Positions 289-47,182 of a DNA stretch of 64,000 nt are shown in pieces (positions within the stretch are counted from its first letter, which is position 1; every line of letters begins with the position of its first letter). A program made the translations under genes and the position numbers. The notes below the pieces were generated by a model. The model ran no database searches, was not told where the DNA came from, and saw only the letters and a list, made by a program, of their open reading frames with translations. Origin of the DNA: Planctomycetota bacterium (GTDB taxonomy: Bacteria > Planctomycetota > JACOTG01 > JAJDCM01); the NCBI GenBank assembly GCA_029260825.1, contig JAJDCM010000112.1:1-64000 (forward strand), in the 5' to 3' direction.

Positions 289-3129
289 ATGTTCTTTACC
301 AAGCAACAGTGTGTGACCCGGCCATTGACGAACCGTTTTCTGGCGACAGCCTTGACTCTTCTCTGTTGGCCTCTCTCGGCGGCGGCAAACACCCGCGCCA
401 TAGAAACGGTCCTGCCGCCGACCGTACCCACCTGCGATGAGGTCTCTTTCGGGGAATCGACAGGGATCAGTGGCGACTTCGCCATCGTTGGCGCCCCTGG
501 CGACTCCCTCAATGGTCCCCCGAACGCTGGCGTTGCATACGTCTACGCACGAAGCTCCTCCGGCTGGTTGCTCCAGGCTACTCTCCAATCCAACACGCCC
601 ATGACTTCCGGGCGTTTTGGCTGTTCGGTCACGATTGACGGCGATACGCTTGCCGTCGGCGATGACTCCCAAAGTCAGGTCCACGTGTTCACTTTTTCCG
701 AGATCACGTCCACCTGGATCCGGCAGGCGACGCTTCAGGGCGGAGATACTGCGACTTCCGATCAGTTCGGATCCTCCGTCCACATGAACGACGATACCCT
801 CGTCGTGGGAGCTATTCTGGACGATGATTCCGGAACGAACGCAGGTGCGGCCTACGTCTTCACCCGGACGGGGGGGATCTGGACCGAGCATTCCAAACTT
901 CTCGGATCCGCGGTGGACGAAAATCACCGCTTCGGAACTTCGGTGTCGGTGCAGGGAGATCACCTCCTCGTTGGATCCCCTCATGGCAACGGGGACCGGG
1001 GAGAGGTCTACGCTTTTGAGTGTTCCGGGGGATCCTGGAACGAAGAAGATCGTTTTGTAGCGGCGAACTCCGTCGCTTCCGATCGATTTGGTTTCTCGGT
1101 CTCGATGAGCGGACAGGTTGCGCTCATCGGAGCTCCCTTCCGTGACGGAGCCGAGGAGAGCGCGGGAGCAGCGTACTTCTTCTCGAGAAGCGAGTCCACA
1201 TGGACCGAGCAGCAAGAGATTTCCGGCGACGCTGGCCATTTCTTTGAATACGGATACTCGGTCGACGTCGATGGAACAACGGCGGTGATCGGCACTCCCG
1301 AGTTCCAGGGGGGTGCCAGCGGATCCATCTACGTCTACACCGTCGCTGGAAACATCTGGTCAATGGAAGAGAAGATGACCGGGAACGGAGGGATCTTCGG
1401 ATCTTCGGTATCCATCTGCGGAGATGACGTCTTTGCCGGAGCTCCTCGCTTTGAATGTCTCGACGAATTCGGTTTTCCGCGAGGCCGTGGTGAAGCCATC
1501 GCCTACTCCCGCATCGGATCGATCTGGAATGAAACGGCGCGCAAGACTCCCATCGGAACCAACCTCATCGAGGACGCCAGCTACGGGACGAGCGTTGCCA
1601 ATGACCGTGGGATCACCGCGGTCGCCGCCCCATTCTACGGTAGCAACGGTACCGTGTTCCTGTTCGGTGTCGGCAACAGTTCCCGACTCGAGGGCGACGT
1701 CGCCGGCGGTCGATTTGGAAGCGCCGTTTCGGTCAGCGGAACCACGCTGGCTGTCGGAGCTGAATCGGAGAACCGGGTTCACATTTATGTCCTCGAGAAC
1801 GGAAGCTGGACTCTCCAGGCGTCTATTGAGGGACTCGACACCTCAAACGGCGATCAGTTCGGTTCGGCAGTCGACCTTGACGGTGATACCCTCGCCGTCG
1901 GAGCCATCCTCGAAGACGGATCCGGGAACAACGCCGGTGCCGTTTATGTCTTCACTCGGACAGGAACGATGTGGACCCAGGAAGCCAAGCTTCTCGGATC
2001 GCTGGTTTCGTCGGATGCAAGATTCGGAACTTCCCTTTCTCTCGACGGAGACTCGCTTCTTGTCGGCGCTCCTTTTGGCGGTCCGAACTTCCGAGGTGAG
2101 GTGTACTCCTTCCAGCGTTCGGATATCGTGTGGACGGAAGAGCAGGTCTTTTTCGGGAATGACTCGACCGATCTCGACCGTTTCGGATTCTCCGTGGCTC
2201 TCAGCGGAAGCTCCGCCCTCATCGGCGCTCCCCAGCACGATGGAGTCAATATGAACGACGGTGCCGCCTACGTTTTCAGTCGTCTGGGCTCTTTGTGGAC
2301 GCAGGAGCAGAAGCTCACGGGTGACACGGGCCACTTCTTCCACTTCGGATGTTCGGTGACGCTCGATGCGGACGTGGCTGTGGTTGGCACTCCCGAATTC
2401 CAGGGGAATGCGACGGGCTCGGCCTACCTCTTTCTTCGGAACGGAGACACCTTCTCGCTGGAGAAGAAGATCGTGGCGAACGACTCCTTCAATAGCGTGA
2501 ACTTCGGCGAAGCGGTTGCGATCAGTCGGGAAAACGACGACAAGGCGACCCTGGTCGTGGGTGATCCCCGAGGCACGATTAGCGGCGTGAACAATGGTTC
2601 CGCCTCTTTGTTCACCATCCGTTGCCTGCCCGACCTCTCTCACCGCATTGGCAACGTCAATGCTGCCGCCGGTCCGGTTGCTGATGTCTTGTTCGTGAAC
2701 GATTCAATCGGTGAGGGGGCGGAGCGACGTGTTGTCTTCGGTTCGAGCGACCCGTTCGAACTGCGCGTAGGTCTTCCCCCGGCCGAGACGACGGCCCCGT
2801 ACGCCCTCTATGTCTGGTTCGGTGCTCCGGTTGCCGGAGACGGCAAAGATCTTCCTTTCGGGATCGGCAGTGGGGTCCGTCCCATGCCCCTGACCTCAAG
2901 CTGCTCCCCTCAACCGGTGCGAATCGCCAACAACCTTGGCTTCACGAGCGTCCTTGGAGCGGAGAATTTTCCCGGGCCCGCGAGCCAGCCCGCGCCCTAT
3001 ACGCTTCTTGACCTGGCCGGCGGACTCGGCGAGACCGGGATCTTCACGATTCAGGTCCTGATCAAGGATTCCAGCTCTCCGCAGGGTCAGGCGGCTGTGT
3101 CCAATGCAATCGTCGTGATCTCAAAATAA
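289..3129 (+). CDS. Secreted FG-GAP (integrin-alpha-like) double beta-propeller protein
   Basis: The 946-residue product opens with a signal peptide (basic start, hydrophobic stretch about residues 17-31 ending SAAA). The body is a run of FG-GAP-like blades, each with an F-G-x-S-V then L-x-V-G-A-P-type strand pair and an A-Y-V-F/Y strand. Residues of about 50-410 are repeated at about 425-770, so the protein looks like two propellers made by tandem duplication. Residues of about 785-946 form the C-terminal domain shared with five other proteins in this window (G-N-V-N-A-A start, D-V-L-F-V-N-D, Y-A-L-Y-V-W, and a V-S-N-A-I-V-V-I end). A GGAG sequence 8 bases before the ATG supports the start. 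A hairpin plus T-run follows the stop. Propellers of this kind usually mediate adhesion or ligand binding at the cell surface. No catalytic motif is visible and the ligand is unknown. Confidence 0.85.
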   Translation: MFFTKQQCVTRPLTNRFLATALTLLCWPLSAAANTRAIETVLPPTVPTCDEVSFGESTGISGDFAIVGAPGDSLNGPPNAGVAYVYARSSSGWLLQATLQSNTPMTSGRFGCSVTIDGDTLAVGDDSQSQVHVFTFSEITSTWIRQATLQGGDTATSDQFGSSVHMNDDTLVVGAILDDDSGTNAGAAYVFTRTGGIWTEHSKLLGSAVDENHRFGTSVSVQGDHLLVGSPHGNGDRGEVYAFECSGGSWNEEDRFVAANSVASDRFGFSVSMSGQVALIGAPFRDGAEESAGAAYFFSRSESTWTEQQEISGDAGHFFEYGYSVDVDGTTAVIGTPEFQGGASGSIYVYTVAGNIWSMEEKMTGNGGIFGSSVSICGDDVFAGAPRFECLDEFGFPRGRGEAIAYSRIGSIWNETARKTPIGTNLIEDASYGTSVANDRGITAVAAPFYGSNGTVFLFGVGNSSRLEGDVAGGRFGSAVSVSGTTLAVGAESENRVHIYVLENGSWTLQASIEGLDTSNGDQFGSAVDLDGDTLAVGAILEDGSGNNAGAVYVFTRTGTMWTQEAKLLGSLVSSDARFGTSLSLDGDSLLVGAPFGGPNFRGEVYSFQRSDIVWTEEQVFFGNDSTDLDRFGFSVALSGSSALIGAPQHDGVNMNDGAAYVFSRLGSLWTQEQKLTGDTGHFFHFGCSVTLDADVAVVGTPEFQGNATGSAYLFLRNGDTFSLEKKIVANDSFNSVNFGEAVAISRENDDKATLVVGDPRGTISGVNNGSASLFTIRCLPDLSHRIGNVNAAAGPVADVLFVNDSIGEGAERRVVFGSSDPFELRVGLPPAETTAPYALYVWFGAPVAGDGKDLPFGIGSGVRPMPLTSSCSPQPVRIANNLGFTSVLGAENFPGPASQPAPYTLLDLAGGLGETGIFTIQVLIKDSSSPQGQAAVSNAIVVISK
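440..1530 (+). repeat. First copy of internal propeller duplication
   Basis: This is copy 1 of an intragenic tandem duplication of about 1.09 kb in the FG-GAP protein. Landmarks recur in the same order in copy 2: D-Q-F-G-S, V-V-G-A-I-L, K-L-L-G-S, R-F-G-T-S, D-R-F-G-F-S-V, A-L-I-G-A-P, G-H-F-F and V-I-G-T-P-E-F-Q-G. Limits are approximate because the copies have diverged. Confidence 0.75.
1560..2610 (+). repeat. Second copy of internal propeller duplication
   Basis: This is copy 2 of the duplication, offset about 1,090 bases from copy 1 with the blade order kept. The shared G-T-P-E-F-Q-G and G-H-F-F segments, which are not part of the generic FG-GAP pattern, show that the whole propeller was duplicated, rather than blade-by-blade expansion. 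Confidence 0.75.
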
Positions 3130-3162
3130 GGACCCGAGCAGGATCTTTTGATTCTTTCCCCG

Positions 3163-3198
3163 GAACGGAGCGGCGCAAGTCGCTCCGTTCTACTTTTT
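3163..3198 (+). terminator. Intrinsic terminator after FG-GAP gene
   Basis: A perfect 10-bp stem, GAACGGAGCG with CGCTCCGTTC (3163-3172 and 3181-3190), has an 8-base loop and is followed by TACTTTTT. It lies 33 bases after the FG-GAP stop and before the kinase ribosome site, so the two genes are probably separate transcription units. Confidence 0.8.
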
Positions 3199-3239
3199 CC
3201 TGTATCATCGAGAGGTGTTCGCTTTCAGGAGACTCCGTC

Positions 3240-9823: not shown

Positions 9824-11956
9824 TTATTCGATCGACAGCACGACCGCGTTGGTCACGCTGAATCCCTTCACATTTGCCGCGCCCGAATCCTCGATCAAAC
9901 CCTGAAAGGTTATCTGAAGGGGCCGGCTTGTGCCGGGAGACATCAGAACTACGGGGCCGCGCCCCGGTCCGGGCAGTGCAGGGACGCCTTGACAGCCCCT
10001 CATCATGAGTGCGCCGGTCCCGAGGCAGCGAAATGGTCGGGGCAGAGCAAAGGTCATGGCCGGTGTCGGGTTCACCGTACAGCCGAGTAGCGCCCCGCCC
10101 GAAGACTGTACATCGTAGGAGGAAGTCGGGCCTTGTCGCCACGCCCAGAGAAGATAGCGTGGCTTTGCGGGTCCCATCGGGGAGGCCGATAGGGTCAGCT
10201 CAAGAGGCGAAGAAGTGGACGCCGTGACGTCACCGGTTTCCCCGTTGATCCGAAGCACGTCGGCAACGGCTCCCGCCCCCAGGTTCACGGTTCCTTCCCG
10301 GCATGATTGAACGGAGGGCATGCGGATCACATGAACGATCGCATCGTCAAGATCCGAGTCCCCGTTCAGGTCCCGACCTTCCCCTTGCTCCAGGATTGGC
10401 ATGAAGGCAAGTTCGGAACCAAGCGCATTGGTAAAGCTAGTGGCGCGCTGCAGGTTCATGGTGGAGCCACCCGTTGCAAAGGAACGGAAGTGGGGGATTC
10501 GATCCGTGCTGTCTCCGTCTCCATTCAGGTCGGTCGATCCCTGGGCGGTTTCGGAGACGGAGAAGAGGGCGGTGGAGTTGGTGATGGAAACAGCACCCGA
10601 TACGGCGAATCTGGAATTCTCGGGTGAGGTCATCCCGTCAAGGGTGCCGAAATAGAGGATCTCATCTTCGATGTCTCCGTCCCCGTTCAGATCCGTCTGC
10701 CCTTCCCAGATTTCTCGGACGATCCCGGCAAAGCGATTTCCGGAGACGATGGCCCCGGAGAATCCCCGAAAGGAAATCCCTGAAATTCGCGTGTTCGTCA
10801 GGGTTCCGGAAGCAAAGCAAAGCGTGTGGTAGACGAAATCCGTCGCGTCGCCGTCCCCGTTGAGATCCTGGTTGCCGTGATCTTCCTCGAATGCTGCAAA
10901 CACCGCACCGAGTTCACCCAGGGCAGGGGGGCCTGATTCGGCAAACCCGAGGTTTCTCAGGATACTCCCACCGGTTCCGTATACATGGGGTACATCATCA
11001 AGCGTGTCTCCGTCGCCGTTGAAGTCGGTGAGCTGTCCTGACTCGGAGACCGATATCACGATTTGATTCCCCCGGGTGGAGGGAATCCGGGCGGTGGCTA
11101 CCTGGAGGTTGAAGGTGAATGCGCCGTCAGTATCATAAGTGTGAGCCACCCGATCGAGCACGTCTCCGTCCCCGTTGAGGTCCAGGCCTTGGATCGTTTC
11201 CCAGACTTCGAACGCGATGCGTTGACCCGTGCATGGACCAACATCGCCCGCCAGGCCAAGATTGATCATCTGCCCGGTGCCGCGGTCGAACACATGAATG
11301 ATCCGGCCACTCCCTGCCGGAAATGTTACCTGGTCTCCGGGAGGGACTCTCTCGGTGGAAAGACCCGTATTGATCACGGTTTGCGTTTCCGGGTGCAGGA
11401 TGTGAACGATTGAATCGAAGGCGTCTCCATCTCCATTGAGATCGGTCATCCCCTGGGCTTCTTCCGAAACAAGGCAAGACATGAGGTCGAGGTGGACCTG
11501 GATCGAGTCCCTTTCCGTTCGGGCCAGGCCGAGGTTGTGAAGCATGCCGGTTCGAGCAGCGATGAGGTGAAGCACGTCATCGTCAAGATCTCCATCGCCG
11601 TTGAGATCGGTTCCTTGATCGGCCTCGGAGGCGGCGAACAAGAAGTAACCCTGAGAGAGCCCGTGCTCCCGGCGATCGGTTGCGCTGAGAGCGGCGGCGA
11701 TCGGGATGACCCGGATCTGCCCATTGACCGCGTCATAGAGGTGGGGGATCAAATCATCGATGTCAGCATCGGCGTTGAGATCACTTCCACCGTTCGATTC
11801 GGGGGAGAGAAACACCGCAAAGCGGCCGTCAACCGAGTAGGCAAGGTCCTCGAAGGCTGAAGTTTGTAGGTTCAGCAAGGGCTGTGCGTTTATGCACGAT
11901 GCCAGGAGTAAGATCGCCCACGCAAGACATGCTAACCACCGATAGCATCCGTTCAT
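9824..11956 (-). CDS. Exported DLNGDGD-repeat protein with shared C-terminal domain
   Basis: The 710-residue protein has a signal peptide in which L-A-S-C at residues 18-21 would also fit a lipobox, so it may be a lipoprotein. The body holds nine spaced copies of an acidic D-L-N-G-D-G-D-x-x-D loop (including D-L-N-A-D-A-D and D-L-N-G-D-S-D variants), one about every 55-65 residues. Each is followed by an H-x-Y/H-strand and an N-L-G-L/F turn. The loops resemble EF-hand or dockerin calcium sites embedded in a beta-propeller-like repeat. Residues of about 550-710 are the shared C-terminal domain (G-T-V-N...V-L-R-I-N...S-V-T-N-A-V-V-L-S-I). GAGGAG lies 8 bases before the ATG. A paralogue lies at about 36.8-38.9 kb. 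Surface calcium-dependent binding is a guess. Confidence 0.8.
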   Translation of the reverse strand: MNGCYRWLACLAWAILLLASCINAQPLLNLQTSAFEDLAYSVDGRFAVFLSPESNGGSDLNADADIDDLIPHLYDAVNGQIRVIPIAAALSATDRREHGLSQGYFLFAASEADQGTDLNGDGDLDDDVLHLIAARTGMLHNLGLARTERDSIQVHLDLMSCLVSEEAQGMTDLNGDGDAFDSIVHILHPETQTVINTGLSTERVPPGDQVTFPAGSGRIIHVFDRGTGQMINLGLAGDVGPCTGQRIAFEVWETIQGLDLNGDGDVLDRVAHTYDTDGAFTFNLQVATARIPSTRGNQIVISVSESGQLTDFNGDGDTLDDVPHVYGTGGSILRNLGFAESGPPALGELGAVFAAFEEDHGNQDLNGDGDATDFVYHTLCFASGTLTNTRISGISFRGFSGAIVSGNRFAGIVREIWEGQTDLNGDGDIEDEILYFGTLDGMTSPENSRFAVSGAVSITNSTALFSVSETAQGSTDLNGDGDSTDRIPHFRSFATGGSTMNLQRATSFTNALGSELAFMPILEQGEGRDLNGDSDLDDAIVHVIRMPSVQSCREGTVNLGAGAVADVLRINGETGDVTASTSSPLELTLSASPMGPAKPRYLLWAWRQGPTSSYDVQSSGGALLGCTVNPTPAMTFALPRPFRCLGTGALMMRGCQGVPALPGPGRGPVVLMSPGTSRPLQITFQGLIEDSGAANVKGFSVTNAVVLSIE

Positions 11957-18748: not shown

Positions 18749-20014
18749 ATGTGCGTATTTCTTGGGGACGGATCGATCTCAATAAAGGTAATTCAGGGGT
18801 TGTGCGCCCTTTTGATCTCGTTTTGTTGGTCCGCCTCTTCTCAGGCTCACGAATTGCGCCTGGTCGATGTTGTCGACGGGACCACCGTCAACGACTCCAG
18901 CTGCTCCTGGCAGAAGTCCGCCATCGGCTGCGGGTCAATGATCAAGATGCAACGATTGTATCCGCCCGATACCATCGCCACCGATATCGAATCCTACAGC
19001 GTGAGACTTGCCGAAGATGCCTGTCCCGGGACATCGTATGAGGCAAGTTGTGTTTCCTTGAGTCCCACAGAGACGCAGGGTGCGATTTTTGCCGTCGCGG
19101 GCGAGATGGCCGAAGTGTCTGGATCCGTCTTTCCTCCGTTCCCCGGCCCGAACCTGAGGATGGATTTCTGGGTTCGAAGGGGTCAGAGTGGCAACCCTGT
19201 TTTTTTGGTCGATGACGCTTGCCGTGTTCGGTTACGGGTTGCGGGAGTGGTTCAGACCACGGGCTCCGTTCAGGGGTTTTCGTTGAAGTTTGGTAGCGGG
19301 AGTGGCTGTGTTGCAATCCAGTCTGATGGAGCGTTTGAGGATACTCTCCTTGTGGATCCGCGCAGTGTGATGCCACCGGATCCCGGTCCCAGTCTTTCGG
19401 TGACCCTTGACTACCAGGTAGGAATCCTTCAGTCTAGCTCTCCCGGGGCGCTGGACATTTCCTTCACCATTTCGATTGACGAGGTGATTCTCGACGAGTA
19501 TTGCACTCGATTCGGGCGAGTGGGAACGTACAGAAATAACGGTGAGGAAGCGGTTCCGGTTGTTTCGGTGAACGGCTTTCCCGCACCCGTCGATTTTCCC
19601 CGGGTTTGGCAGCCCGGTTCCGGGGCTCTTTTTGTGCAGGTCCAGGGTCACCAGGCCAACATGATGGATACGCCGTATGTCCTTTATCTCTGGGGTCGAC
19701 AGCCGACGGCTGCAACAGCGTCATCTCTGGGGGTGGAGTTAGGCGGTCCTCATTATTTGGCGTTCCCACCGCCGTTTGATGGAATGCCGAGTCCGGGTCT
19801 GAGGTCAGTCTGGAATAGCATCGGAAATCCGCGAGCAGGAGAGCATGCTCCCGTCAACGGTGCGCCTCCTTGTCTTGCTCCTTGCACGGTGTTTGCAGGC
19901 GAGGTGCCTCAGCGACTGATCGGAAGAAACTTCACTCTCCAGGGCATCATGCGAGACGAGGATGCTCCTTCGAAGTATTCGGTGACCAATGCTGTGGTGA
20001 TCCAGATCCGATGA
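18749..20014 (+). CDS. Secreted protein of unknown function with shared C-terminal domain
   Basis: The 421-residue protein starts at ATG 18749, where AAGGAGG lies 4-5 bases upstream; an in-frame start at 18716 has no such site. A signal peptide ends near S-S-Q-A-H. The middle (about residues 30-255) is cysteine-containing, beta-rich and unlike any family I know. From about residue 256 it carries the shared C-terminal domain: a divergent G-T-Y-R-N-N opening, Y-V-L-Y-L-W, and L-Q-G-I-M-R-D...S-V-T-N-A-V-V-I-Q-I. The gene is divergent from the GntR operon. It is a useful outgroup for that domain because its opening motif is degenerate. Confidence 0.75.
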   Translation: MCVFLGDGSISIKVIQGLCALLISFCWSASSQAHELRLVDVVDGTTVNDSSCSWQKSAIGCGSMIKMQRLYPPDTIATDIESYSVRLAEDACPGTSYEASCVSLSPTETQGAIFAVAGEMAEVSGSVFPPFPGPNLRMDFWVRRGQSGNPVFLVDDACRVRLRVAGVVQTTGSVQGFSLKFGSGSGCVAIQSDGAFEDTLLVDPRSVMPPDPGPSLSVTLDYQVGILQSSSPGALDISFTISIDEVILDEYCTRFGRVGTYRNNGEEAVPVVSVNGFPAPVDFPRVWQPGSGALFVQVQGHQANMMDTPYVLYLWGRQPTAATASSLGVELGGPHYLAFPPPFDGMPSPGLRSVWNSIGNPRAGEHAPVNGAPPCLAPCTVFAGEVPQRLIGRNFTLQGIMRDEDAPSKYSVTNAVVIQIR

Positions 20015-20214: not shown

Positions 20215-23200
20215 TTGTTAATTCTCAGCGGAACAAGACAGACATTGCGAACCAGAAGATTTTATGGGTGGTTTTGGGGGAGCATATTTCTTCTCATGTC
20301 CAACGTCGGGTCAGCTCAAGAACGAGCTGGCTCGATCCGTGGAGTTGTCTATGACAAGGACTTTGATGTCCCGTTGGCGCTTGTTCAGGTGGTCGTCCTC
20401 GAAACCGACCTCAAGGTGATCAGTTCAGAGCAAGGGACATATTCTTTCCCGGAGCTGAAACCTGGCCAATATACCCTTGTCTTCTCCAAAGAAGGTTATG
20501 CACGATCGGTCAGGCCGGATGTGCTTGTAACGCCAGGAAAATTGACCGATGTGAACGTCTCTCTTGCCGGCGAGTTTACCGACATGGACGAGTTCGTCGT
20601 GGAGGACCTTCTTCCGGGGAATGCGGGTTCGGAAATTGCCTTGCTGAACCTCAGGTTCAAGAGCCCCGCGTTGCTGGATTCCATCAGTTCTGATTTGATG
20701 AGTCGAGCCGGTGCAAGTGATGCCGCGAGTGCTCTGCGTCTCGTTCCGGGTGCTACGGTCACCGATGGGAAGTTCGCCGTCATTCGCGGACTACCCGACC
20801 GCTACGTCAGTTCCCAGCTCAACGGATTTCGACTTCCGTCGGCGGACGAGGACACACGAGCAGCCGAGCTGGATCAGTATCCGTCGTCGATCCTCGACAG
20901 CATTCGAATCAGCAAGACCTTCACACCAGATCAGCAGGGAGATGCATCCGGAGGAGCCGTCGATGTACGACTCAAAAGAGTTCCTGAACGGACGATCTTT
21001 CAGTTCAGTTCCCAGACAAGCTTCAACACCCAGGTGGCCGGGCGCAGCAATTTTCTCTCCTATCGGGGAGGCGGAGTCAATGGGAGTGGGCGTGACAATC
21101 ATCGTCGAAGGATCCAGTTCGAGAACATCGGAGATGATTGGACGGGAGCAGTGGGCACTAGCCGGGAGGAGGCCCCCATCGACTACAAGCTCAACGGAGC
21201 AGCGGGTGGAAGCTACGAGTTCGACACGGGGATTCGTTTTGGTGGCTTTGCCAGTGCTTTCTATGAACGGGATAGCTCGTTCTTCGACGATGGAGAGGAC
21301 AACTCTCTCTGGGTCACGAATCCAGGTGAGGGACTCGTCCCGGAGACCGTCCAGGGTGTCCCTCAGCCAGGAGAGACCCCTCCAGGGAATGCGGGCGACT
21401 TCAAGACGGCGTTGTTTGATGTGACTCAGGGAAAGCAGTCGGTTCAGTGGGGTGTACTCGGGACTCTCGGAGTCGAGACCGAAAACCATCAGATCGGTTT
21501 CACCTATCTATATACGCGCAATGCCGAGGACAAAGCCACCCTTGCCGAGGATACGCGAGGGAAAGAGTACTTCTTTCCCGGCTATGATCGAGATGATCCT
21601 ACCCACATTGGTAACGAGGAAGGAAACCGGAGTGCTGCGCCCCACATCCGGACGGAAACGCTGGAGTATACCGAGCGGGTCACTGAAACCTTCCAGCTCA
21701 ACGGCAATCACCGGTTGCCTACCGAAGAGTTCGAGTTGACCGACACTCTCACCGTTCTTCCGCCGGAGATTGATTGGGGTTTTGCCAGTAGTTCGGCAAG
21801 CCAGGATCAGCCGGATAAGCGCCAGTTTGGAACCCTCTGGCAGGCTGCATCATTTGTTCCCGGTCGTCCGCCGTTTTCCGAGGACAAAATTGAACCGGCC
21901 GAGCACTTTCCTTTCAAGCCGGCGGCAGTGTTTTCCCTGGGCAACTTGCAGCGCATCTTCAAGAGGATCGAAGAGGAAAGCGATCAGTATTTCATCAACT
22001 TCAAGGTGCCGTTCCGACAATGGACGGACAGTGAGGGGTACTTCAAGTTGGGCTTCTTTGATGACAGGGTCGACCGTGAGTTTCGACAGGAAACTTTCAC
22101 AAATTCTGGTGACTTCTCGACATTTCAAGGTGACTTCGATGACTATTATTCGGGCGTGTTTCCCGGTGAAGATGGTCACGATATCCTCGCTTCCGACTTC
22201 GATGTGGACTACGACGGGAAGCTGGATGTCTCCGCCTGGTATTCAATGTTGGATCTTCCCATCACTTCGTACTTGAACGTGGTCGGCGGGTTTCGAGTGG
22301 AGTCAACCGAGATCGAAGTCGTTAACATCCCTGAAGAATTCGCCACCTGGTTTCCTCCGAATGCTCTGGGACCGGTTGAGCTGGAGCCGGGCGACGCGGA
22401 TGTGGTTATCAGTGAAGACGATCTTCTTCCCTCGTTCGGTTTGGTTGTGAAGCCCGTCGAGCAGGTTACGCTACGAGCCTCCTACAGCGAGACGATTGCT
22501 CGTCCCACGTTCAAGGAGCTCACACCGGTCCTGCAGCAAGAGTTTCTTGGTGGCCCCATCTTCATCGGCAACCCGGAGGTTCAGCTCAGCAAGGTCAAGA
22601 ACTATGACATTCGTCTCGATTACAAGCCCTACGAGGGCGGGTTCCTGTCTGCCTCCTGGTTTACCAAGGATATTGATGGAGCCATCGAGAATGTTCAGAG
22701 GTTTGTGAACTTCAACTTTACCACCCCGAGAAACTTCCCGGAGGCGACTCTGAAGGGTTGGGAATTCGAAGCTCGCCAGAACCTGGGGAATTTCTTTGAT
22801 GGCTTTGAGCCGTTTTCGGTGGGAGCGAATGCCACTCTGATCGACTCCGAGGTGAGACTCCCGGCCGATGAGCGGGCGCAGTTTGACCTGCCGAATATTC
22901 AAGCGCCCCAGAGCAAGCGCGATGCCACCAATGCTCCGGAGCATCTCTACAATATTTACCTGAACTTTGACTATCCCTCGACCGGAACCAGGGCTGGGCT
23001 CTTTTACACCGTAAGGGGAGACACGCTTGTGGCAGGAGCGGGAACCTCGGATGGGAATTTCGTGCCGAGTGTTTACGAGTCGGAGTTCGATACACTCAAC
23101 TTTACCGTCTCCCAGACTCTCTGGGACAACTTCATGCTGAGTTTCAAGGCGAAGAACCTCACGAACCCCAAGATCAAAACAGTCTACCGCTCGGCCTACG

Positions 23201-23283: not shown

Positions 23284-23306
23284 TCTTCCTGGTTGAACCA
23301 GGGATC
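23282..23306 (+). promoter_or_regulatory. Intercistronic hairpin between receptor and energy genes
   Basis: GATC-tt-CCTGG / CCAGG-GATC forms a hairpin with a TTGAA loop, starting at the receptor stop codon. There is no T-run, so it is more likely an mRNA stability or attenuation element than a full terminator. It could let the receptor be expressed above the inner-membrane motor genes. Confidence 0.45.
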
Positions 23307-23328
23307 TCATGATGTGGAAGGAGTGAAT

Positions 23329-25811: not shown

Positions 25812-25834
25812 GCTTTTCAGGAGGGGGTGGATCA

Positions 25835-26557: not shown

Positions 26558-26625
26558 TTTGTTTGTCCTGCATGTCGGGGTATGGCGTTGGTTCAGGGAA
26601 TTGATCGAGAGAGAAGGATTTTTTC

Positions 26626-27042
26626 ATGGGACGTTTTCAGGACGCCGGAGCGGATGAGGGAAATGAGACCGGCTTCGATATGTCTCCGCTCATTGATTGT
26701 GTGTTTATTCTGCTGATTTTCTTCATTGTCACCACAGTTTTCGTGGAGGAGACGGGGGTGGAAGTGGATAGACCCGAGGCCGCATCATCCGTACAGCTGG
26801 AAAAGACGAGTATTCTGATCGCACTGACGAGCAAGGGGGAAGTCGTCTACGGGGGCCGGGAAATCGGTGTGGGTGGGGTCTTCTCGGTCGTCAAGCGGGC
26901 TCTTGCAAAAGAGAAGGAGACCCCGGTGATCATTCAAGCGGACCGGTTGGCTCAGGCGGGCACCCTGACCCGGATCGTGGGAGAGGCGAGGCTGGCGGGA
27001 GCGGTCAAAGTTAGCGTAGCTACCCGCGCCGGAAATGGATAG
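26626..27042 (+). CDS. exbD: ExbD/TolR-family subunit
   Basis: The 138-residue protein has one N-terminal TM helix with the proton-carrying aspartate at residue 24 (M-S-P-L-I-D-C-V-F-I-L-L-I-F-F) and a periplasmic ExbD domain (V-I-I-Q-A-D, then V-G-E-A-R-L-A-G). Both features are canonical and complete. It lies 68 bases after exbB with AAGGA before the ATG, and 3 bases before tonB. Confidence 0.94.
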   Translation: MGRFQDAGADEGNETGFDMSPLIDCVFILLIFFIVTTVFVEETGVEVDRPEAASSVQLEKTSILIALTSKGEVVYGGREIGVGGVFSVVKRALAKEKETPVIIQADRLAQAGTLTRIVGEARLAGAVKVSVATRAGNG

Positions 27043-27045
27043 GCG

Positions 27046-27714
27046 ATGCTAAGGACTGGCAAGCAGACACCTCTGATCCTCAGGTGTGTTGAGGTGATCC
27101 TGGTCGTTATCGGCGCGGTACTGCTCACGTCGATTCTTTTCCTCATTCTTCCATTGACTCAGGCAATCAGTAAGCCCCCGCGTGCGGATGTTCAGCTTGC
27201 AGATTTTGATGCTGCGAACATTCCTCCACCGCCTCCGCCCATCGAGGATGAACCGGAGGAGCCGGAGTCGGAAGATGTCGAACCGCCGAAGCTGGAGGAA
27301 GATCTCCCTCTCCCGGATCTTTCTCAGCTCGAGCTGGCGATGAATCCCGGTCTGGGAGATGGGCTTCTTGGCGGCGATTTCACGATCAACCTGGACAAGG
27401 CCATTTCGGGTAAGAAGGACATCGATGCGTTGTTTTCGTTGAGTGACCTGGATCAGCCTCCTCGCGTGATTCATCAGACGCAGCCTGTCCTCACGGCTGC
27501 CATCAGAAAGAAGGCTCCGGGGACCGTCTGGATCGCGTTCGTGGTCAATGACAGAGGAAGGGCCGAGGCTCCCAAGGTGATGAGTTCCTCGGATGCGGTC
27601 TTTGATCAGGCAGCTCTCAAGGCTGTCATGCAATGGAAGTTTGAACCGGGAAAGCGGAAGGGCAAGCCTGTGCGCTTCCGGATGCGAGTTCCCTTTACGT
27701 TTCCGAAAGGATGA
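27046..27714 (+). CDS. tonB: TonB energy transducer
   Basis: The 222-residue protein has an N-terminal membrane anchor at about 14-38, a short proline/glutamate-rich linker (P-P-P-P-P-P-I-E-D-E-P near 60) and a C-terminal TonB domain at about 140-222 (G-T-V-W-I-A-F-V-V-N-D-R-G-R, A-V-M-Q-W-K-F-E-P-G, V-P-F-T-F). It transmits proton-motive energy from ExbBD to the outer-membrane receptor. The linker is short compared with E. coli TonB, as in TonB2 proteins, where TtpC-type partners are thought to compensate. It overlaps the TPR lipoprotein gene by 4 bases. Confidence 0.93.
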   Translation: MLRTGKQTPLILRCVEVILVVIGAVLLTSILFLILPLTQAISKPPRADVQLADFDAANIPPPPPPIEDEPEEPESEDVEPPKLEEDLPLPDLSQLELAMNPGLGDGLLGGDFTINLDKAISGKKDIDALFSLSDLDQPPRVIHQTQPVLTAAIRKKAPGTVWIAFVVNDRGRAEAPKVMSSSDAVFDQAALKAVMQWKFEPGKRKGKPVRFRMRVPFTFPKG

Positions 27715-29237
27715 TGACGATGATTCGGGTCTCAGTTCTGGTCGTTGGATTTGTTATGGCGCTGTCGTCTTGTGCTCTGGCCCCGAAGGAGGAGGCGATG
27801 GCGGGGGATGGTTCGCTTGAGTCGTCCGGAACCAAGAAGGATGACACTCCCGCATTATCCGCGAATTCCGATGCGACTTCCGCACCCGTCCGGCCTCCGG
27901 CAATCGCAGTGGATCCGGCCGGAGGTATTGTCTCCTCGGTGACAGCTAGTTCACTTTCGATCTGGAAGGATCCGGCCTTCAGGAAGCGATTCACCGAGAG
28001 TTATGTCGCGGAGACGGAGATCGAGCCGCTTGTTACGTTGGTCGAGCGTGACTTGATGCAAGAAGTCTTCGAGTTCATGTCTTCGGGCGATCTCGATAAG
28101 GCCCGTTCCCTCGTGAACAAGAAACGTGGCGATGAGGCCAGCGCGGTCCTTGATTTTACCCTGGCAAATATTCATTTCGAGCAGGATCGGCTTGAACCTG
28201 CCGCTCGAATCTACGAGATCGCCGTGGAGAAGTGTCCCAAGTTTCGACGAGCCTGGAAGAATCTCGGTCTGGCCCATGTCCGTCTTGCGGATTTCAATTC
28301 TGCTCTTCCCGCCCTGCTGAAAGTCATCGAGCTTGGAGGGGGCGATGGGCTGACCTTTGGCCTGGTTGGCTATTGTTATTACAACCTGGAGAACTTTCTC
28401 CCGGCGGAATCTGCATACCGAATGGCTTCCTTGCTTGATCCGAAGACGATGGACTGGCAGGTCGGGCTCGCGCGTAGTCTTTTCAAGGAGGAGCGGTTTG
28501 CGGATGCGGCCTCCCTTTGTGGCAGCATGATCGCCGGGAATCCCGATAGCGCGGATCTTTGGCTTCTGCAGGCAAATGCGTTTCTTGGTCTCGAGCGCCC
28601 CCTTCGCGCCGCCGAGAACTTCGAGATGGTTGATCGGATGGGGCGCTCGACGCCGGAGAGCCTGAACCTCCTGGGAGATATTTACGTCAGCGAGAACCTT
28701 CTTGAGCTGGGTGCCGCAACCTATATAAGGGTGATCGAGAAGGGCTCGAAGAATGAAGTGAATCGGGCGATTCGATCGGCGAAGAATCTGTCTGCCCGAG
28801 GAGGCACTGAATCTACGCGAAATGTAATTCAGAGTATTGAATCCCGCTACGAGAGCAGTCTCACGGGGGACCAGAGTAAAGATCTGTTGCGGTTGAAGGC
28901 GCGAATAGCTGTTGTTGAAGGGGCCGGAGAAGAAGAGATGAGGATCCTTGAAGAAATCGTCGAGCTTGATCCCCTGGACGGAGATGCCCTCATTCTGCTA
29001 GGGCGGTACTATGGTCGCAACGAAGAGTCGGAAAGAGCCGGACTGTATTTTGAGCGCGCCGCGGATCTCGAAGGTCATGAGCCGGAAGCGAAGCAGCGCC
29101 ATGGACAAATGCTCGTGCGACTGGGTCGGTATACCGAGGCTCTTCCACTGCTCAAGCGATCACAGGTATTGAGGCCCCGTGACACATTGGACGACTATGT
29201 CCGGCAAGTGGAACGATTGGCTCAGACCCGGCGTTAA
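27711..29237 (+). CDS. TPR lipoprotein of the Ttp system
   Basis: The 508-residue protein has a lipoprotein signal with lipobox L-S-S-C (Cys20), a low-complexity Ser/Pro/Ala stretch, then about ten TPRs from residue 110 to the end (A-W-K-N-L-G-L-A-H-V, E-S-A-Y-R-M-A-S-L-L-D-P, G-L-Y-F-E-R-A-A-D-L). A TPR protein closes most DUF3450-TtpC-ExbB-ExbD-TonB operons, and this matches. The first ATG overlaps the tonB stop; other ATGs follow at 27714 and 27720. It is likely a membrane-anchored periplasmic scaffold. Confidence 0.88.
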   Translation: MMTMIRVSVLVVGFVMALSSCALAPKEEAMAGDGSLESSGTKKDDTPALSANSDATSAPVRPPAIAVDPAGGIVSSVTASSLSIWKDPAFRKRFTESYVAETEIEPLVTLVERDLMQEVFEFMSSGDLDKARSLVNKKRGDEASAVLDFTLANIHFEQDRLEPAARIYEIAVEKCPKFRRAWKNLGLAHVRLADFNSALPALLKVIELGGGDGLTFGLVGYCYYNLENFLPAESAYRMASLLDPKTMDWQVGLARSLFKEERFADAASLCGSMIAGNPDSADLWLLQANAFLGLERPLRAAENFEMVDRMGRSTPESLNLLGDIYVSENLLELGAATYIRVIEKGSKNEVNRAIRSAKNLSARGGTESTRNVIQSIESRYESSLTGDQSKDLLRLKARIAVVEGAGEEEMRILEEIVELDPLDGDALILLGRYYGRNEESERAGLYFERAADLEGHEPEAKQRHGQMLVRLGRYTEALPLLKRSQVLRPRDTLDDYVRQVERLAQTRR

Positions 29238-36750: not shown

Positions 36751-38946
36751 TTACTCTTCCGTGATCCGGACCTGGAGAGTTACCGCGTTCGTGACGCTCC
36801 ACCCCAGGGGATTTCCGGCGCCCGCATCCTCGATGACCCCTTGGAGAGTCATCGTTATCGGCGCGGGAAGACCCGGGAGACTCGAAACGACGAACGGTGT
36901 TTGATCTGGTCCCATTTTCCGGGTGGTGGTTCCCGAGCAGGCAAGCGGCGGGATGTCAGCGCCGGTCAGGCAGAGGAATGGTCTTGGACTGACCTCCGTC
37001 ATGAATGGGGTCGGGTTGATCGTGTGTCCAAGAGAGTTTCCACCTGCCAGGAGCTCCTGCTCGTTTGCCGAGCGGCCGACCCAGCCCCACAAGATGTATC
37101 GACCTGTCGGTCCAAGAGGCGCCGAATCGAGTGAAACGGTAAAAGGTGTGCGTGGGCTCACGGTTACTGTGCCCGGAAGTTCGTTAATGCGCAGTACCTC
37201 AACAACCTCGCCCTGACCCGAATTGACGCTCCCTGTTCCATAGGGCTCATTGATCCGCGCCACGTGGAGGACGTCGTGGGTTAGAAGGCCGTCCCCGTCG
37301 AGATCCTCTCCGGCATCCTTCTCGTTTACCTGGTAGGCAATGGTGTGTTCGGAGCGGCTCATCTCACTCCGGATTTCCAGGCCCAGGTTGGTGAGGAGAC
37401 CGGTTGAAGCGTCATACAGGTGAACCACCCTGTCCATCCTGTCACCGTCGCCGTTGAGGTCCGCTCCCTGTCGGCCCTCCCGCACGTCGATGAAGATACG
37501 ATTCCCGTAGGGCAAGACCCGATCGAGCTCGGGAACGACGCTCGTGTTTGTCACGCGCTCCGTGTTGCCGTCGTAGACGAACACGACATCGTCATCGGGA
37601 TTGTTGAACTCACCATCGCCATTGAGATCGACTGCGCCGACCCGGCTCTCATCCACGGTGAAGCTGAGGAGTTTGCCGACGCCGTTCACCTTGATCGAAG
37701 AACCTTGGATCGGGAATCCGATGTTGGTCAGCCGATCGGTTTCTGGATCCCAGGCATGGAGGATCAAGTCGAGAAAATCTCCATCCCCGTTCAGATCGGT
37801 GAGTCCCTGCTGGGTTTCATTCACTTCGATCGAGACCAGGTCGCCGGTCACGTCGGGAATTCCCGCGACCCCGAGATTGGTGATTTGCAGGGTGTCCGCA
37901 TTGTAGGAGTGGGTCACGAGATCGAAGATGTCTCCGTCGCCGTTGCGGTCGGCGAATGCCTGATCAAACTCGTCGACCGCGAAAAAAACCTCGCTGCCAA
38001 GGATGTCCGGGCTGCCATCGCAGGTGGAGGCCAGTCCCAGATTGCTGAGGATCTCCGTCCGGTGATCATAGACGAAAACGACCTGATCGTCGAGATCTCC
38101 GTCCGCATTGAGGTCTTCGGATTGGCGCCCTTCGTCAACATAGAAGCTAAGGAGTGGACCTTCTACGATCGGGCAGTAGCAATCGAGTCCGAGATTGGTC
38201 AGCTCCTGGGTCACTGGATCATAGACATGGATGACCCAGTCATCATCATCTCCATCTCCGTTGAGATCGGTGTTGCCTTGCCCTCGCTCCGAAATGCTCG
38301 CCGCAAGGAAGTCATCGCTAACCCGGAACGTGACGGAGGAAGCGCCCAGGTTGCGCGTCACCGGCGTGACGCCGAGATCCACGTTGAAAAGGATCGAAGT
38401 GTCATTGGTGTCGCCGTCTCCGTTGAGATCCGTGCCTTCTTCCCGAACCTCGAACGCCAACCGTCTCGGAGATTTGCCAATGAATGAGATGGAGGTCACG
38501 CCCAGGTTGGTCGCCTCTCCGGATTCGCGATTCACAATGTGAAAGACATTGTCATCCGAGTCTCCGTCCCCGTTCAGATCGATTCCACCCTGAGCACTCT
38601 CCCGGACGTTCATCAGAATCCAGCGACCGTGCAGTTGAGGAGGGCGTCCTGAGCGGTTCGGCGCGAGGCCCAGGTTGCGAATCTCGAGGGTCCGAAGGTC
38701 GACGATGTGGAGGACCCGGTCGTCCATGTCTCCATCGCCGTTCCGATCTTCGCCGACATCCTCCTCCCGGATCTGGATGAGGAGGAATGGCTCCTGCGAA
38801 TTAGCTTTGTTGATCTTTCCTGCGACTCCGAGGTTCTGCACGTCCCGGAGGTTGGGTACGCCCCAGGCGGAGGAGACCGAAAAGAGGCACGCAGCGGCTA
38901 AAATCGTGCTGCAGAGGTGACGGGTAGCGTCGCTATTTCGTCCCAT
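36751..38946 (-). CDS. Exported DLNGDGD-repeat protein with shared C-terminal domain (paralogue)
   Basis: The 731-residue product starts at ATG 38946 (GGAG about 8 bases upstream); the ATG at 38997 adds a non-signal-like leader. A signal peptide ends S-S-A-W-G. Ten acidic loops of the D-L/R-N-G-D-G-D-x-x-D type recur about every 55-60 residues, each followed by a V-x-H-x-Y/D strand and a N-L-G turn, as in the 9.8-12 kb paralogue. The last about 165 residues are the shared C-terminal domain (G-S-V-N...V-L-R-I-N...I-L-W-G-W...L-Q-G-V-I-E-D...S-V-T-N-A-V-T-L-Q). The two paralogues align along their whole length including the P-T-P-F/A-M segment, so they share an ancestor. Confidence 0.82.
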   Translation of the reverse strand: MGRNSDATRHLCSTILAAACLFSVSSAWGVPNLRDVQNLGVAGKINKANSQEPFLLIQIREEDVGEDRNGDGDMDDRVLHIVDLRTLEIRNLGLAPNRSGRPPQLHGRWILMNVRESAQGGIDLNGDGDSDDNVFHIVNRESGEATNLGVTSISFIGKSPRRLAFEVREEGTDLNGDGDTNDTSILFNVDLGVTPVTRNLGASSVTFRVSDDFLAASISERGQGNTDLNGDGDDDDWVIHVYDPVTQELTNLGLDCYCPIVEGPLLSFYVDEGRQSEDLNADGDLDDQVVFVYDHRTEILSNLGLASTCDGSPDILGSEVFFAVDEFDQAFADRNGDGDIFDLVTHSYNADTLQITNLGVAGIPDVTGDLVSIEVNETQQGLTDLNGDGDFLDLILHAWDPETDRLTNIGFPIQGSSIKVNGVGKLLSFTVDESRVGAVDLNGDGEFNNPDDDVVFVYDGNTERVTNTSVVPELDRVLPYGNRIFIDVREGRQGADLNGDGDRMDRVVHLYDASTGLLTNLGLEIRSEMSRSEHTIAYQVNEKDAGEDLDGDGLLTHDVLHVARINEPYGTGSVNSGQGEVVEVLRINELPGTVTVSPRTPFTVSLDSAPLGPTGRYILWGWVGRSANEQELLAGGNSLGHTINPTPFMTEVSPRPFLCLTGADIPPLACSGTTTRKMGPDQTPFVVSSLPGLPAPITMTLQGVIEDAGAGNPLGWSVTNAVTLQVRITEE

Positions 38947-41108: not shown

Positions 41109-42866
41109 GTGCGGATTTACGACTCCAACACTCCCCATCAAAAGATGCGGACTCTCCTCTTCGTTGCGATCCTTCTCGTTGTTGTTTCTCCTGGTGCCAC
41201 TGGCGCCTGGGGGATGGAGGTCGAGCGTTTCCTCTTCGAGTCCGTGCTTTCCTCCGAGTCTTCCTCGCAGCGAGGAATCCTGACCGCGGAAGTGCTCGGT
41301 CTGCGTCCTGGTGATCGTGTCCGGGGTCAGCAGATCGTGTTTGAGTTGTTACCGGGCCTCATCGCCGAGGGTCGGATTGAAGGAGTCAAGAATCCAGCTC
41401 TTTCCGATGCTCTGGTCTTTGGTTCCATCGACGACCATCCCGGAGGCTGGTTTCACCTGGTGGTGAACGGGGAGGTTGCGGCCGGGGAGATCTCGCTTCC
41501 CGGAGTCGGGCATTTCCTTCTTCGGCCCGATGTTGGCGATGAGGGCCATGTGGTTCGGAGGGTCGATCCTCGACATCGTTTACGTTGTCTCGGTGCAGTC
41601 GATCCCGGGGATTTTTTCGAGGGGACGGGATCTTTTGCGAGTGCGAGAGGGGCTTCCGATTGTGCCCGGGGTTATCCGCTTTTGATCGACCTCATGGTGG
41701 TCTACACACCTTCTTCGCGGGCCGCGTTGGGCGGAGTCGCCGCGATCGAGGCGGTGATTGACTCTCACGTCGACTTTACCAATGCGGCGTATGAGAGGAG
41801 TGGGGTTGCTCATCGTCTTCGACTGGTCCACGCGAGCGAGATCGCCTATATCGAATCGGGAAACTCGCTCACGGATCTGGCCCGGCTTCGCGCTCTTTCG
41901 GACGGTTTTCTCGATACTGTTCATCCGTTGCGGGATCAATTCGGGGCGGATCTTGTGAGCTTGGTCAATACTTCAGGCTCGGCGGGTACGGGCTACAAGA
42001 TGGACGTGTTGGGGCCTCAGTTCGCTTCGTCGGCATTTAGCGCCATCGGGCATGATGTGGGCGGAATCGTCCTGGCACACGAGACGGGGCATAACCTGGG
42101 TTGTGACCACAACAATGGTGCGGGCGCCGCCCAGACGATCTTTTGTTATTCATTCGGTCATCGCACTCAAGGGCAGGAGTTTCGGACCATCATGTCGAAC
42201 TCTCCCGGCACCTACGTTGATTTCTTTTCCAGTCCGGATCTGGATGTGGGGGGGCTGGCCCTGGGAGTCTCTGGCGATGGTTGTCCACAGACTGCGGCTC
42301 ACAACGTGCGCTCCCTCAACAATGCGGCTGCGACCGTGGCGCAATTTCGCTCCACGGTCATCCCCGAGGAACTGCATCTTGCCTGTCGTTACGGCAACGT
42401 GAATGCTGCGGGTGGAAGTACGGTGGATGTTCTCTTTGTCAACGATTCGGCCGGGCTCGGTGAGGCAAGGGAGGTGATCCTTGGGCAAGACGACTCTCTG
42501 AAGATCAGCATGTCTCTTCCGCCTTCGATGCCGGTTGCCGCTCCTTTTGTGGTTTACGTGTTCACGGTCTTGCCGGATATGGCGAGCTCGCGAAGTTTGC
42601 CGGCTGGCATCGGAACTTTTTGTCTGGCCAATCCAATCACCGATCAGAATCCACTCGGGTTGCGAGCAATCTTCAACAACAAGGGATTCAACAACGTCTT
42701 GGGCAGCGCCACTCGCCCGTCGACTCCGGCTCCGAGTGATCTTGTGTGCCTACCCCAGGGTGCGCAGCGCACCGGGTCAGTCTTTCTGCAGGGAATCATT
42801 GATGACACCCAATCCTGTCATGGGTTGGTCGCGATAACAAACGGGGTCGTGCTCCGATTGGAGTGA
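41109..42866 (+). CDS. Secreted reprolysin-like (M12B-type) metalloprotease with shared C-terminal domain
   Basis: The 585-residue product carries the metzincin zinc motif H-E-T-G-H-N-L-G-C-D-H near residue 323, with a downstream I-M-S Met-turn candidate (F-R-T-I-M-S-N-S). GTG 41109 has CGGAG about 8 bases upstream and leaves a signal peptide after a 12-residue n-region; ATG 41145 is possible and the longer frame to 41049 is not supported. A prodomain of about 190 residues precedes the protease. The shared C-terminal domain covers about residues 425-585 (G-N-V-N-A-A-G-G...D-V-L-F-V-N-D...V-Y-V-F...L-Q-G-I-I-D-D...I-T-N-G-V-V-L-R-L). It is a secreted endopeptidase; the substrate is unknown. 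Confidence 0.88.
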   Translation: MRIYDSNTPHQKMRTLLFVAILLVVVSPGATGAWGMEVERFLFESVLSSESSSQRGILTAEVLGLRPGDRVRGQQIVFELLPGLIAEGRIEGVKNPALSDALVFGSIDDHPGGWFHLVVNGEVAAGEISLPGVGHFLLRPDVGDEGHVVRRVDPRHRLRCLGAVDPGDFFEGTGSFASARGASDCARGYPLLIDLMVVYTPSSRAALGGVAAIEAVIDSHVDFTNAAYERSGVAHRLRLVHASEIAYIESGNSLTDLARLRALSDGFLDTVHPLRDQFGADLVSLVNTSGSAGTGYKMDVLGPQFASSAFSAIGHDVGGIVLAHETGHNLGCDHNNGAGAAQTIFCYSFGHRTQGQEFRTIMSNSPGTYVDFFSSPDLDVGGLALGVSGDGCPQTAAHNVRSLNNAAATVAQFRSTVIPEELHLACRYGNVNAAGGSTVDVLFVNDSAGLGEAREVILGQDDSLKISMSLPPSMPVAAPFVVYVFTVLPDMASSRSLPAGIGTFCLANPITDQNPLGLRAIFNNKGFNNVLGSATRPSTPAPSDLVCLPQGAQRTGSVFLQGIIDDTQSCHGLVAITNGVVLRLE

Positions 42867-44898: not shown

Positions 44899-44942
44899 GG
44901 AGGGGGGGGGCGACGCTTCTGTTCCGGATCCGGAAAGTTGAA

Positions 44943-45037
44943 CGTTCGGGATCGAACGACTGAATGAGTCGACCTGGGGTGCGTTTGTCCTGGATGGTGA
45001 CTGGCGTTGAGTCAACGGCGACGGGTTTGACTCAACG
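44943..45037. terminator. Two hairpins between convergent genes
   Basis: CGTTCG-ggat-CGAACG (44943-44958) is a small hairpin. A perfect 11-bp stem, CGTTGAGTCAA/TTGACTCAACG (45005-45037, 11-base loop), follows. They lie between the S41 protease and the arylsulfotransferase-like gene. No T-run follows either arm, so termination is uncertain; the second could be a protein-binding inverted repeat. Confidence 0.45.
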
Positions 45038-45094
45038 ATCCGGGCTCGGCCGCGGAGGTTCTTTTCTCCCGGTGCGGCCGAACCCGTTCCTTGG

Positions 45095-47182
45095 CTATTG
45101 AATCTTCACGACGAAACCGTTCGTCACGCTGAAGGGAACGGTGCCCTGAGAGCAGTTGTCTTCGATGATCCCTTGGACGGTCACCGTCACCGCTCTCCCC
45201 AGACCGGACGGAAGCGAAGCGAGCTCGAAAACACCACTGTCGGGAATGACGGGTATCGGTCCGGGAACGTTGTCGATTCCAAGGCTTTCCTCGTAATCAA
45301 GGCTATTCCATATTCTGATCGGACTCCGAGTTGCGTTCACGAAGAGGCCAAAGCACATGGGGCCCAGGCCTCGTGGCAAGTTTACCTCGTCCTTTGGGCT
45401 CGGTTCGCCCAGCCACACGTAGATGCAGGCGTTCGTCGGATTCCCATCCCCCTGCCGCGAGCCGGGCTCCGCCAGGGTCAAGCTGACAGGCGTTGCTTGG
45501 GTGAGCGAGATCTCCCGGGCGAGGCCGCCTGCCATGCCGTTGAGGAGTAGGACGTCTTCGACCGGACCGCAACTTGCGTTCACTGTCCCGGCACCACAGG
45601 CAGCGATGGACGAGGGAGCGACAACAAAGTTGGCCTGGACCGTTGAGTCGGAGCCGCCCATCGGGACGGTCGTGTGGACAGCGCCTGCATCGGGGATGAC
45701 GAGCGATCCGGACTCCACCGTCCAGCCGGTGAAGACGAATCCCGGCTCGGCCCCGGCGATGAGGGTGGCGAGTTGACCCTCTCCGTAGGCGTAGGTTCCC
45801 TCGGGCCGGCTGGTCATTGAGCCACCGGCCGTGCTCTGAAGGGTCAAGTTCGCATAGTTGTCCCAGGTCTCGAGCTCGCCGGTTGGTGTGAGGTCTCTAC
45901 CAGCGAATGCGGGATGATCGCGACCGTAGCGTGTCGCCCTGAAGATGGAGTTCGTCTGGCCGGGACCTTGTGGCCCGGGGATATCCATTGAACCGAGGAT
46001 CCCGCCGTCGGTGACGGGGTTCACGTATTCCCAGACCACCTGTCCGTCCCGGGTCACTTCGAAGATTGTGCCGGACGCGCCCGAGTCAATGAGGGTATTG
46101 TTGTTCGGAAGCCGTTGGACGCTCGAGATGAACACGGAGAAGAAATCGGTGTTGGGAGTTGCCTCGTACGTCCACGTGGGAGCCGTCGGCTCATAGGCGG
46201 AGCCCGGTGTGTGGGAGTAGGTGAATCCATCGACCGGTGGGACGATTTCGTCAATCGTTGAGAAATCAGCGTGATTGAACCTGCTTCCTCCGTTGTTGAA
46301 GACCAGGATGTTGCCGGCTCCCGGCAGGCCGGGCTTGATCCACTGGGTGTCGTGTTGCCCGAAAAGCTGTCGATCGCTGAGATCTCCGGCGCGGTAGGTC
46401 TCGGGATTCCCCCAGCGGTAGAGAATGTCTCCTCCCATTCCGCTGTTGCCTCCAGCGTGGCTCGCTGCCTCGGCGGTCGTCGTACTGTGATCGATGACCC
46501 AGGCCTCGCAGAAGTGCCGGACTGAGACGATGATCTGGTCCAGGTCCGGGTTGTACTCCATCGCGTTGGTGTGGTTCCAGTTGTTTGAAGTGTTGAAGAT
46601 GTAGTTGATGTCGACAAGTTCGGGATGGTCATCCACCATGGCGAAGTTGTCCTTGGTCTTGTCATGATCTTGCACGAGATGATCCCAGAGGTGCCATTCC
46701 CAGACGATGACGCCAGGAAAGGCAATCTCATAGATGGCGAGGGGCTTGAGGTCGTCGTCAAGCATGCTCGGATCGCGTCCCGCGTCGATCGATTCCTGGT
46801 TCGAAAAAGAATCGCGAGAGATCATGAGCACGTTGCCGTTGGGAAGGGGCTCGATATCGTGATGTGCATCCGGGTCGTCATACTCCCAGATGACGGTTCC
46901 TTCCCAGGTCAGCTCCGCGAACGAGGTTCGTCCCTTGGCGAGTAGGTTACCGTTGTCGAGCAGATAGCCCGGGTGGGTGTTGTCGTTCCCTTTGTCCCAG
47001 GTGTGAACGACGAGGCCGGCGTTGTCGATCAAGTAGGTGAGGCCGCCCTTGGAGAGCATGGTGAAACCGTCGAAGGCTCGCGGATCATTCTGAAACAGCC
47101 CGACTGTTTGCTGGGCAGTCGCCATGCCACTCATGCCCAGAGTCACGATCAGCCAAAGTGCAAGATTCAGCAGTTTCCTCAT
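45095..47182 (-). CDS. Exported arylsulfotransferase-like protein with InlB-type repeat and shared C-terminal domain
   Basis: The 695-residue product starts at ATG 47182, with GAGGAG 8 bases upstream. A signal peptide ends M-A-T-A-Q-Q. Residues of about 25-420 form an ASST-type propeller: H-H-D-I-E-P-L-P-N-G-N-V-L, N-W-N-H-T-N-A-M-E-Y-N, G-Q-H-D-T-Q-W and L-P-N-N-N-T-L-I-D-S-G. The histidine-bearing strands match the arylsulfate sulfotransferase (pfam ASST/Arylsulfotran_2) pattern. Residues of about 445-520 resemble a divergent InlB B-repeat (G-F-V-F-T-G-W). The last about 165 residues are the shared C-terminal domain (G-T-V-N-A-S-C-G...D-V-L-L-L-N...I-Y-V-W-L...V-Q-G-I-I-E-D...S-V-T-N-G-F-V). 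Catalysis is possible but not certain. Confidence 0.82.
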   Translation of the reverse strand: MRKLLNLALWLIVTLGMSGMATAQQTVGLFQNDPRAFDGFTMLSKGGLTYLIDNAGLVVHTWDKGNDNTHPGYLLDNGNLLAKGRTSFAELTWEGTVIWEYDDPDAHHDIEPLPNGNVLMISRDSFSNQESIDAGRDPSMLDDDLKPLAIYEIAFPGVIVWEWHLWDHLVQDHDKTKDNFAMVDDHPELVDINYIFNTSNNWNHTNAMEYNPDLDQIIVSVRHFCEAWVIDHSTTTAEAASHAGGNSGMGGDILYRWGNPETYRAGDLSDRQLFGQHDTQWIKPGLPGAGNILVFNNGGSRFNHADFSTIDEIVPPVDGFTYSHTPGSAYEPTAPTWTYEATPNTDFFSVFISSVQRLPNNNTLIDSGASGTIFEVTRDGQVVWEYVNPVTDGGILGSMDIPGPQGPGQTNSIFRATRYGRDHPAFAGRDLTPTGELETWDNYANLTLQSTAGGSMTSRPEGTYAYGEGQLATLIAGAEPGFVFTGWTVESGSLVIPDAGAVHTTVPMGGSDSTVQANFVVAPSSIAACGAGTVNASCGPVEDVLLLNGMAGGLAREISLTQATPVSLTLAEPGSRQGDGNPTNACIYVWLGEPSPKDEVNLPRGLGPMCFGLFVNATRSPIRIWNSLDYEESLGIDNVPGPIPVIPDSGVFELASLPSGLGRAVTVTVQGIIEDNCSQGTVPFSVTNGFVVKIQ

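Follow-up and report, generated by a model that had tools for sequence, protein, structure and literature searches.

A mobile, folded C-terminal domain on unrelated exported proteins of a planctomycete, probably a tag for envelope sorting or anchoring

The stretch of DNA analysed here, a 64-kb segment of a planctomycete genome hereafter called the window, contains six genes whose products end in the same segment. The copies of this segment, each placed by alignment and by a profile match, and the proteins that carry them are as follows.

2638..3126, plus strand: C-terminal domain copy 1, in carrier 289-3129 with its FG-GAP_2 propeller; the stop is 3 aa further
9827..10306, minus strand: C-terminal domain copy 2, in carrier 9824-11956 with its DLNGDGD repeats
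19511..20011, plus strand: C-terminal domain copy 3, the most divergent, in carrier 18749-20014; profile match of 103 bits
36754..37245, minus strand: C-terminal domain copy 4, in carrier 36751-38946 with its DLNGDGD repeats
42381..42863, plus strand: C-terminal domain copy 5, in carrier 41109-42866, a reprolysin-like metalloprotease of the M12B type; target of the AlphaFold2 prediction
45098..45601, minus strand: C-terminal domain copy 6, in carrier 45095-47182, which is arylsulfotransferase-like
289..3129, plus strand: carrier with signal peptide, FG-GAP_2 repeats and C-terminal domain (Pfam)
9824..11956, minus strand: carrier with DLNGDGD repeats and C-terminal domain
18749..20014, plus strand: carrier with an N-terminal region of unknown type and C-terminal domain (Pfam)
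36751..38946, minus strand: carrier with DLNGDGD repeats and C-terminal domain
41109..42866, plus strand: carrier with M12B-type metalloprotease and C-terminal domain (Pfam)
45095..47182, minus strand: carrier with arylsulfotransferase, Flg_new_2 and C-terminal domain (Pfam)

The six segments are one domain of about 160 residues, and they can be aligned over their whole length up to the stop codons, seven columns being invariant; all six are present where the first-pass annotation had placed them. A profile of the domain, when run on the window, returned exactly these six matches and none in the giant TIG protein or the haem peroxidase, both of which had been said to lack it. Copy 3, whose opening had been described as degenerate, is the most divergent of the six and is nevertheless a full-length member. 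The modules that precede the domain had been called unrelated. Pfam identifies FG-GAP_2, M12B, and arylsulfotransferase with Flg_new_2 in three carriers, and no Pfam family scored over the cut-off in the front parts of 18749-20014 and of both DLNGDGD carriers. On the minus strand, positions 48575-63907 form a single 5110-aa ORF with the appearance of TIG repeats; it lacks the C-terminal domain. Directly downstream of carrier 18749-20014 lies a TonB cluster (20215-29237) with genes for a CarboxypepD-type TonB-dependent receptor, DUF3450, a large MotA/ExbB protein (TtpC-like), ExbB, TonB and a TPR protein. An association of TonB-dependent receptors with protease export has been described for Myxococcus.

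The genome from which the window derives (8.37 Mb in 425 contigs, 90% complete) was searched with the six-segment profile. Dozens of hits had been anticipated, and at least 150 of the 285 candidates matched the domain, with an E of ~2e-24 for the weakest match listed. Full-length copies with the stop codon in view were taken from about 100 regions of this genome and from the window, and in 134 of these 136 the distance from the end of the domain to the stop codon is 0-8 residues; the protein terminates in a β-strand such as SVTNAVVLxIx, at most 8 aa from the stop. The two non-terminal copies lie on the minus strand in ORFs of 1338 aa (L111) and 687 aa (L145), where they are followed by FG-GAP repeats and by an F5/8-like stretch (by eye), respectively. 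Among the copies examined in this genome, there were no cases of two C-terminal domains in one protein.

A signal-peptide-like N-terminus was found in 95 of 113 complete carriers (84%) with a simple heuristic test, which internal positions of the same proteins passed in 3 of 107 cases (3%); the prediction that nearly all carriers would be signal-peptide proteins is thus largely upheld. Neighbouring ORFs passed the same test in 51 of 92 cases (55%), which may comprise other exported proteins as well as false ORFs. Only four of the 95 carriers that passed have a lipobox. In 36 carriers of this genome an A-x-A cleavage motif can be recognised, and in 12 of them it is followed directly by Q, resembling the Q-rule for signal peptidase I in Bacteroidetes (PMC5837995). 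The front parts of about 120 carriers belong to dozens of Pfam families of extracellular type. FG-GAP types dominate, and the others include TIG, lactonase and other propellers, Kelch, HYR, LamG, M12B, subtilase, M23, transglutaminase, ASST, chordin (CHRD), sortilin and β-helix families.

AlphaFold2, applied to copy 5 (42381-42863) with 70 sequences, predicted an all-β sandwich with a pLDDT of 97.8 and a pTM of 0.92, and thus a confident, independent fold, with about ten strands and one short helix over 161 aa. A Foldseek search with this model returned no PDB or viral match at E < 0.001, the weak hits being for the most part Ig-like and related sandwiches. For none of 70 members did a Pfam or NCBIfam model score above noise, Pfam models of CBM and SLH families included, and no PDB sequence matched the domain. 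A relationship to a known enzymatic or carbohydrate-binding family, which had been named as an argument against sorting, is therefore not seen in Pfam, NCBIfam or the PDB. The databases and open literature searched likewise held nothing relevant on a planctomycete C-terminal sorting domain, and the family appears to be undescribed there.

A GTGC-type consensus, which we take to be that of a planctomycete C-terminal domain and which served as a lead only, gave real matches in 12 of 59 genomes. This GTGC type occurs in 81 of the 392 genomes of our phylum sample, with 26 matches in the window's own genome, and searches of Pfam, NCBIfam and the PDB gave nothing above noise for it. Like the window type it is almost always C-terminal (62 of 64 sequences) and forms a β-sandwich (model pLDDT 96.2) with the same strand order and a terminal S/T-N hairpin. 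It is shorter (about 120-130 aa versus about 160 aa) and lacks one strand as well as the opening G-x-V-N...D-V-L-x-V-N-G-S of the window type. When matched by their order along the sequence rather than by superposition, the GTGC-type strands E14, E28, E40, (E53, E57), E66, E79, E100, E116 and E122 have as counterparts E18, E40, E56, (E71, E79), E94, E119, E132, E150 and E156 of the window type. Both types carry a conserved Q within the long penultimate strand, with a conserved D just after it (Q137 and D142 in the window type, Q104 and D109 in the GTGC type). The weak structural neighbours of the GTGC type include a porphyran-binding CBM.

An hhalign comparison of the two profiles gave a score of 34.7 and a probability of 78%, over the last ~30 columns only; the highest score among 150 column-shuffled decoys was 20.0, and TIG tails, taken as an example of unrelated domains, gave 13.3. 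Each of the 18 genomes with the window type lies among the 81 GTGC-positive genomes of the 392. With genomes, genera or families treated as independent, P for this nesting is ~9e-14 at the level of genomes, 2e-9 at that of genera and 3e-6 at that of families, the last assuming 94 families, and all three values are optimistic because the genomes are related. The two types share their fold and the placement of Q and D, and their profiles are similar over those closing columns; we conclude that the window type is a lineage-expanded branch of a planctomycete C-terminal superfamily that includes the GTGC type. The domain had been called unlike any recognised one, which holds for named families but not with respect to this wider superfamily.

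The window type matches in 18 of the 392 sampled genomes, with copy counts in that survey limited by the candidates scored, and is sparse outside the window's order. It is massively expanded in all three genomes of the order that were analysed, each from a different family: the window's own genome and one other have at least 150 copies each, and the third has 126. A genome of another family (G127) has 34, and most of the remaining positive genomes have a few. A pattern scan based on a four-member alignment located the domain in the Planctomycetota MAG JACOTG01 and in the unassigned MAG JAUIME01. All 22 copies from the order genomes and the named MAGs end within 10 aa of the stop. Of 24 copies from distant families for which a stop was seen, 16 are terminal; a constant tail of ~163 residues, read as two TIG domains, follows in seven, and PKD repeats with a haem-type stretch follow in one. 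Strict C-terminal placement, proposed as a general feature, is thus a property of the expanded order and not of every lineage. The two-TIG tail (loci L152, L153, L155, L159, L161, L163 and L169) usually ends in TTYTY or a close variant, and its carriers are lectin-like and DUF1028-like proteins (families by eye); it may be a third terminal module.

Based on its sequence and position, the domain most likely serves as a tag for envelope sorting or anchoring and would work in the manner of a type IX secretion system (T9SS) CTD without being one. The full explanation, a folded C-terminal tag for targeting to the envelope, is one that we consider somewhat more probable than not. Sorting, anchoring and secretion are readings that would look alike at this level.

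An alternative is that the tail is a non-covalent surface-binding domain that holds secreted proteins to a surface glycan, a protein coat or an extracellular matrix and has no part in crossing the outer membrane. The β-sandwich fold is common among binding modules, the carriers are typical surface and matrix proteins, and the porphyran-binding CBM among the weak GTGC-type neighbours points in the same direction. Binding modules, however, are usually found at either end of a protein or internally, and in several copies, whereas here a single C-terminal copy is the rule in the order, and none of the CBM or SLH families matches; we therefore regard this alternative as unlikely, although it is the strongest of those considered. 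The dominance of repeat and propeller proteins among the carriers would suit an adhesive tail of this kind, or a purely structural one.

A structural role would make the domain a stable cap that protects or closes repeat proteins such as the propellers and DLNGDGD proteins and that has spread by gene duplication. Duplication does contribute, as front parts are related in all 43 pairs whose domains are at least 65% identical, and many carriers are repeat proteins. Among pairs with 45-55% domain identity, however, front parts lack detectable similarity in 269 of 337 (80%). Such similar tails on unrelated fronts indicate that the domain moves as a unit, and both classes of pairs taken together therefore indicate spread by shuffling as well as by whole-gene duplication. 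Moreover, proteases, a transglutaminase, ASST and chordin-like proteins also carry the domain, and a cap would have no need for the same conserved Q, D and N, which makes this explanation improbable. The C-terminal domain is a mobile, confidently folding module found on unrelated types of protein.

The reading as a targeting tag invites comparison with known C-terminal signals. T9SS CTDs (TIGR04183 and relatives) are likewise folded, Ig-like C-terminal domains on many unrelated signal-peptide proteins. In rich T9SS genomes, the number of carriers is comparable to that of the window domain. The window domain resembles these CTDs in its place at the extreme C-terminus of Sec-exported proteins (134 of 136 copies; 84% signal-peptide-like) but belongs to another phylum, has no NCBIfam sequence match and is about twice as long as their compact Ig-like 3+4 sandwich of 67-108 aa (PMC11285876). 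That it is itself a divergent T9SS CTD, read by a T9SS, is barely credible: the logic is the same (C-terminal, Ig-like β-sandwich, many carriers per genome) and the C-terminal end of T9SS CTDs is functionally important (PMC11285876), but its 160 aa fall outside their size range, the SprA model TIGR04189, run without a positive control, matched in none of the 18 domain-bearing genomes, none of the 70 members is matched by an NCBIfam model, those of T9SS CTDs included, the 50 best structural matches include none named as a T9SS CTD, and PMC11285876 states that phyla beyond the FCB ones lack T9SS genes.

The PEP-CTERM/exosortase, GlyGly-CTERM/rhombosortase and LPXTG/sortase systems likewise attach a C-terminal label common to unrelated exported proteins, and labels of this kind can be discovered by phylogenetic profiling (PMC1569441, PMC3237569). 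Their signals consist of a short motif, a membrane helix and a basic tail, none of which is found in the large, folded window domain, and the corresponding NCBIfam models match none of the 70 members. In type XI (Slam) secretion, a folded C-terminal β domain of the substrate can act as the recognition unit for an outer-membrane translocon. The handle domains of Slam substrates are barrel-like and occur in Proteobacteria.

As an envelope tag, the domain could operate as follows. Carriers would leave the cytoplasm through Sec by means of an ordinary signal peptide, the step that their N-termini support, and the tail, a self-folding β-sandwich, would fold in the periplasm after export. A dedicated machine of the outer envelope would then read a conserved surface of the last strands, presumably the stretch Q-G-hydrophobic-hydrophobic-x-D together with the S-V-T-N-A hairpin, and would pass the carrier to the cell surface or fix it there. 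Within the window's order the tag would have spread until each genome had well above a hundred carriers, while the rest of the phylum would mostly use the shorter GTGC type, probably with the same machine. A common machine is suggested by the nested distribution of the two types, which could also stem from the shared ancestry of one clade.

The reading as a sorting, anchoring or secretion signal thus agrees with the number of copies, their position, the signal peptides and the fold, but the sorting machine expected to co-occur was not found: no recurrent neighbour gene could be singled out around the domain loci of the own genome. Ser/Thr kinases, which are part of the largest neighbour cluster (19 loci), were rejected because they are as common elsewhere, with 8 of 118 lying within 1.5 kb of a domain versus ~7 expected. 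Secretins do not discriminate either: all 18 genomes with the window type have them, and so do all 16 examined without it, one of which (G031) has the GTGC type.

To our knowledge, it is unsettled how planctomycetes transport their large repertoire of surface and extracellular proteins across the outer membrane. Tentatively, and with slightly more doubt than conviction, we propose that Planctomycetota may own an undescribed outer-envelope system that sorts proteins by either of two related folded domains at their C-termini; in one order it would serve well above a hundred proteins in each genome, and in other families dozens. With at least 150 labelled proteins in a single genome, such a domain allows the exported or surface proteome to be predicted directly from sequence, and the nested distribution of its two types provides a ready phylogenetic profile for finding the machine.
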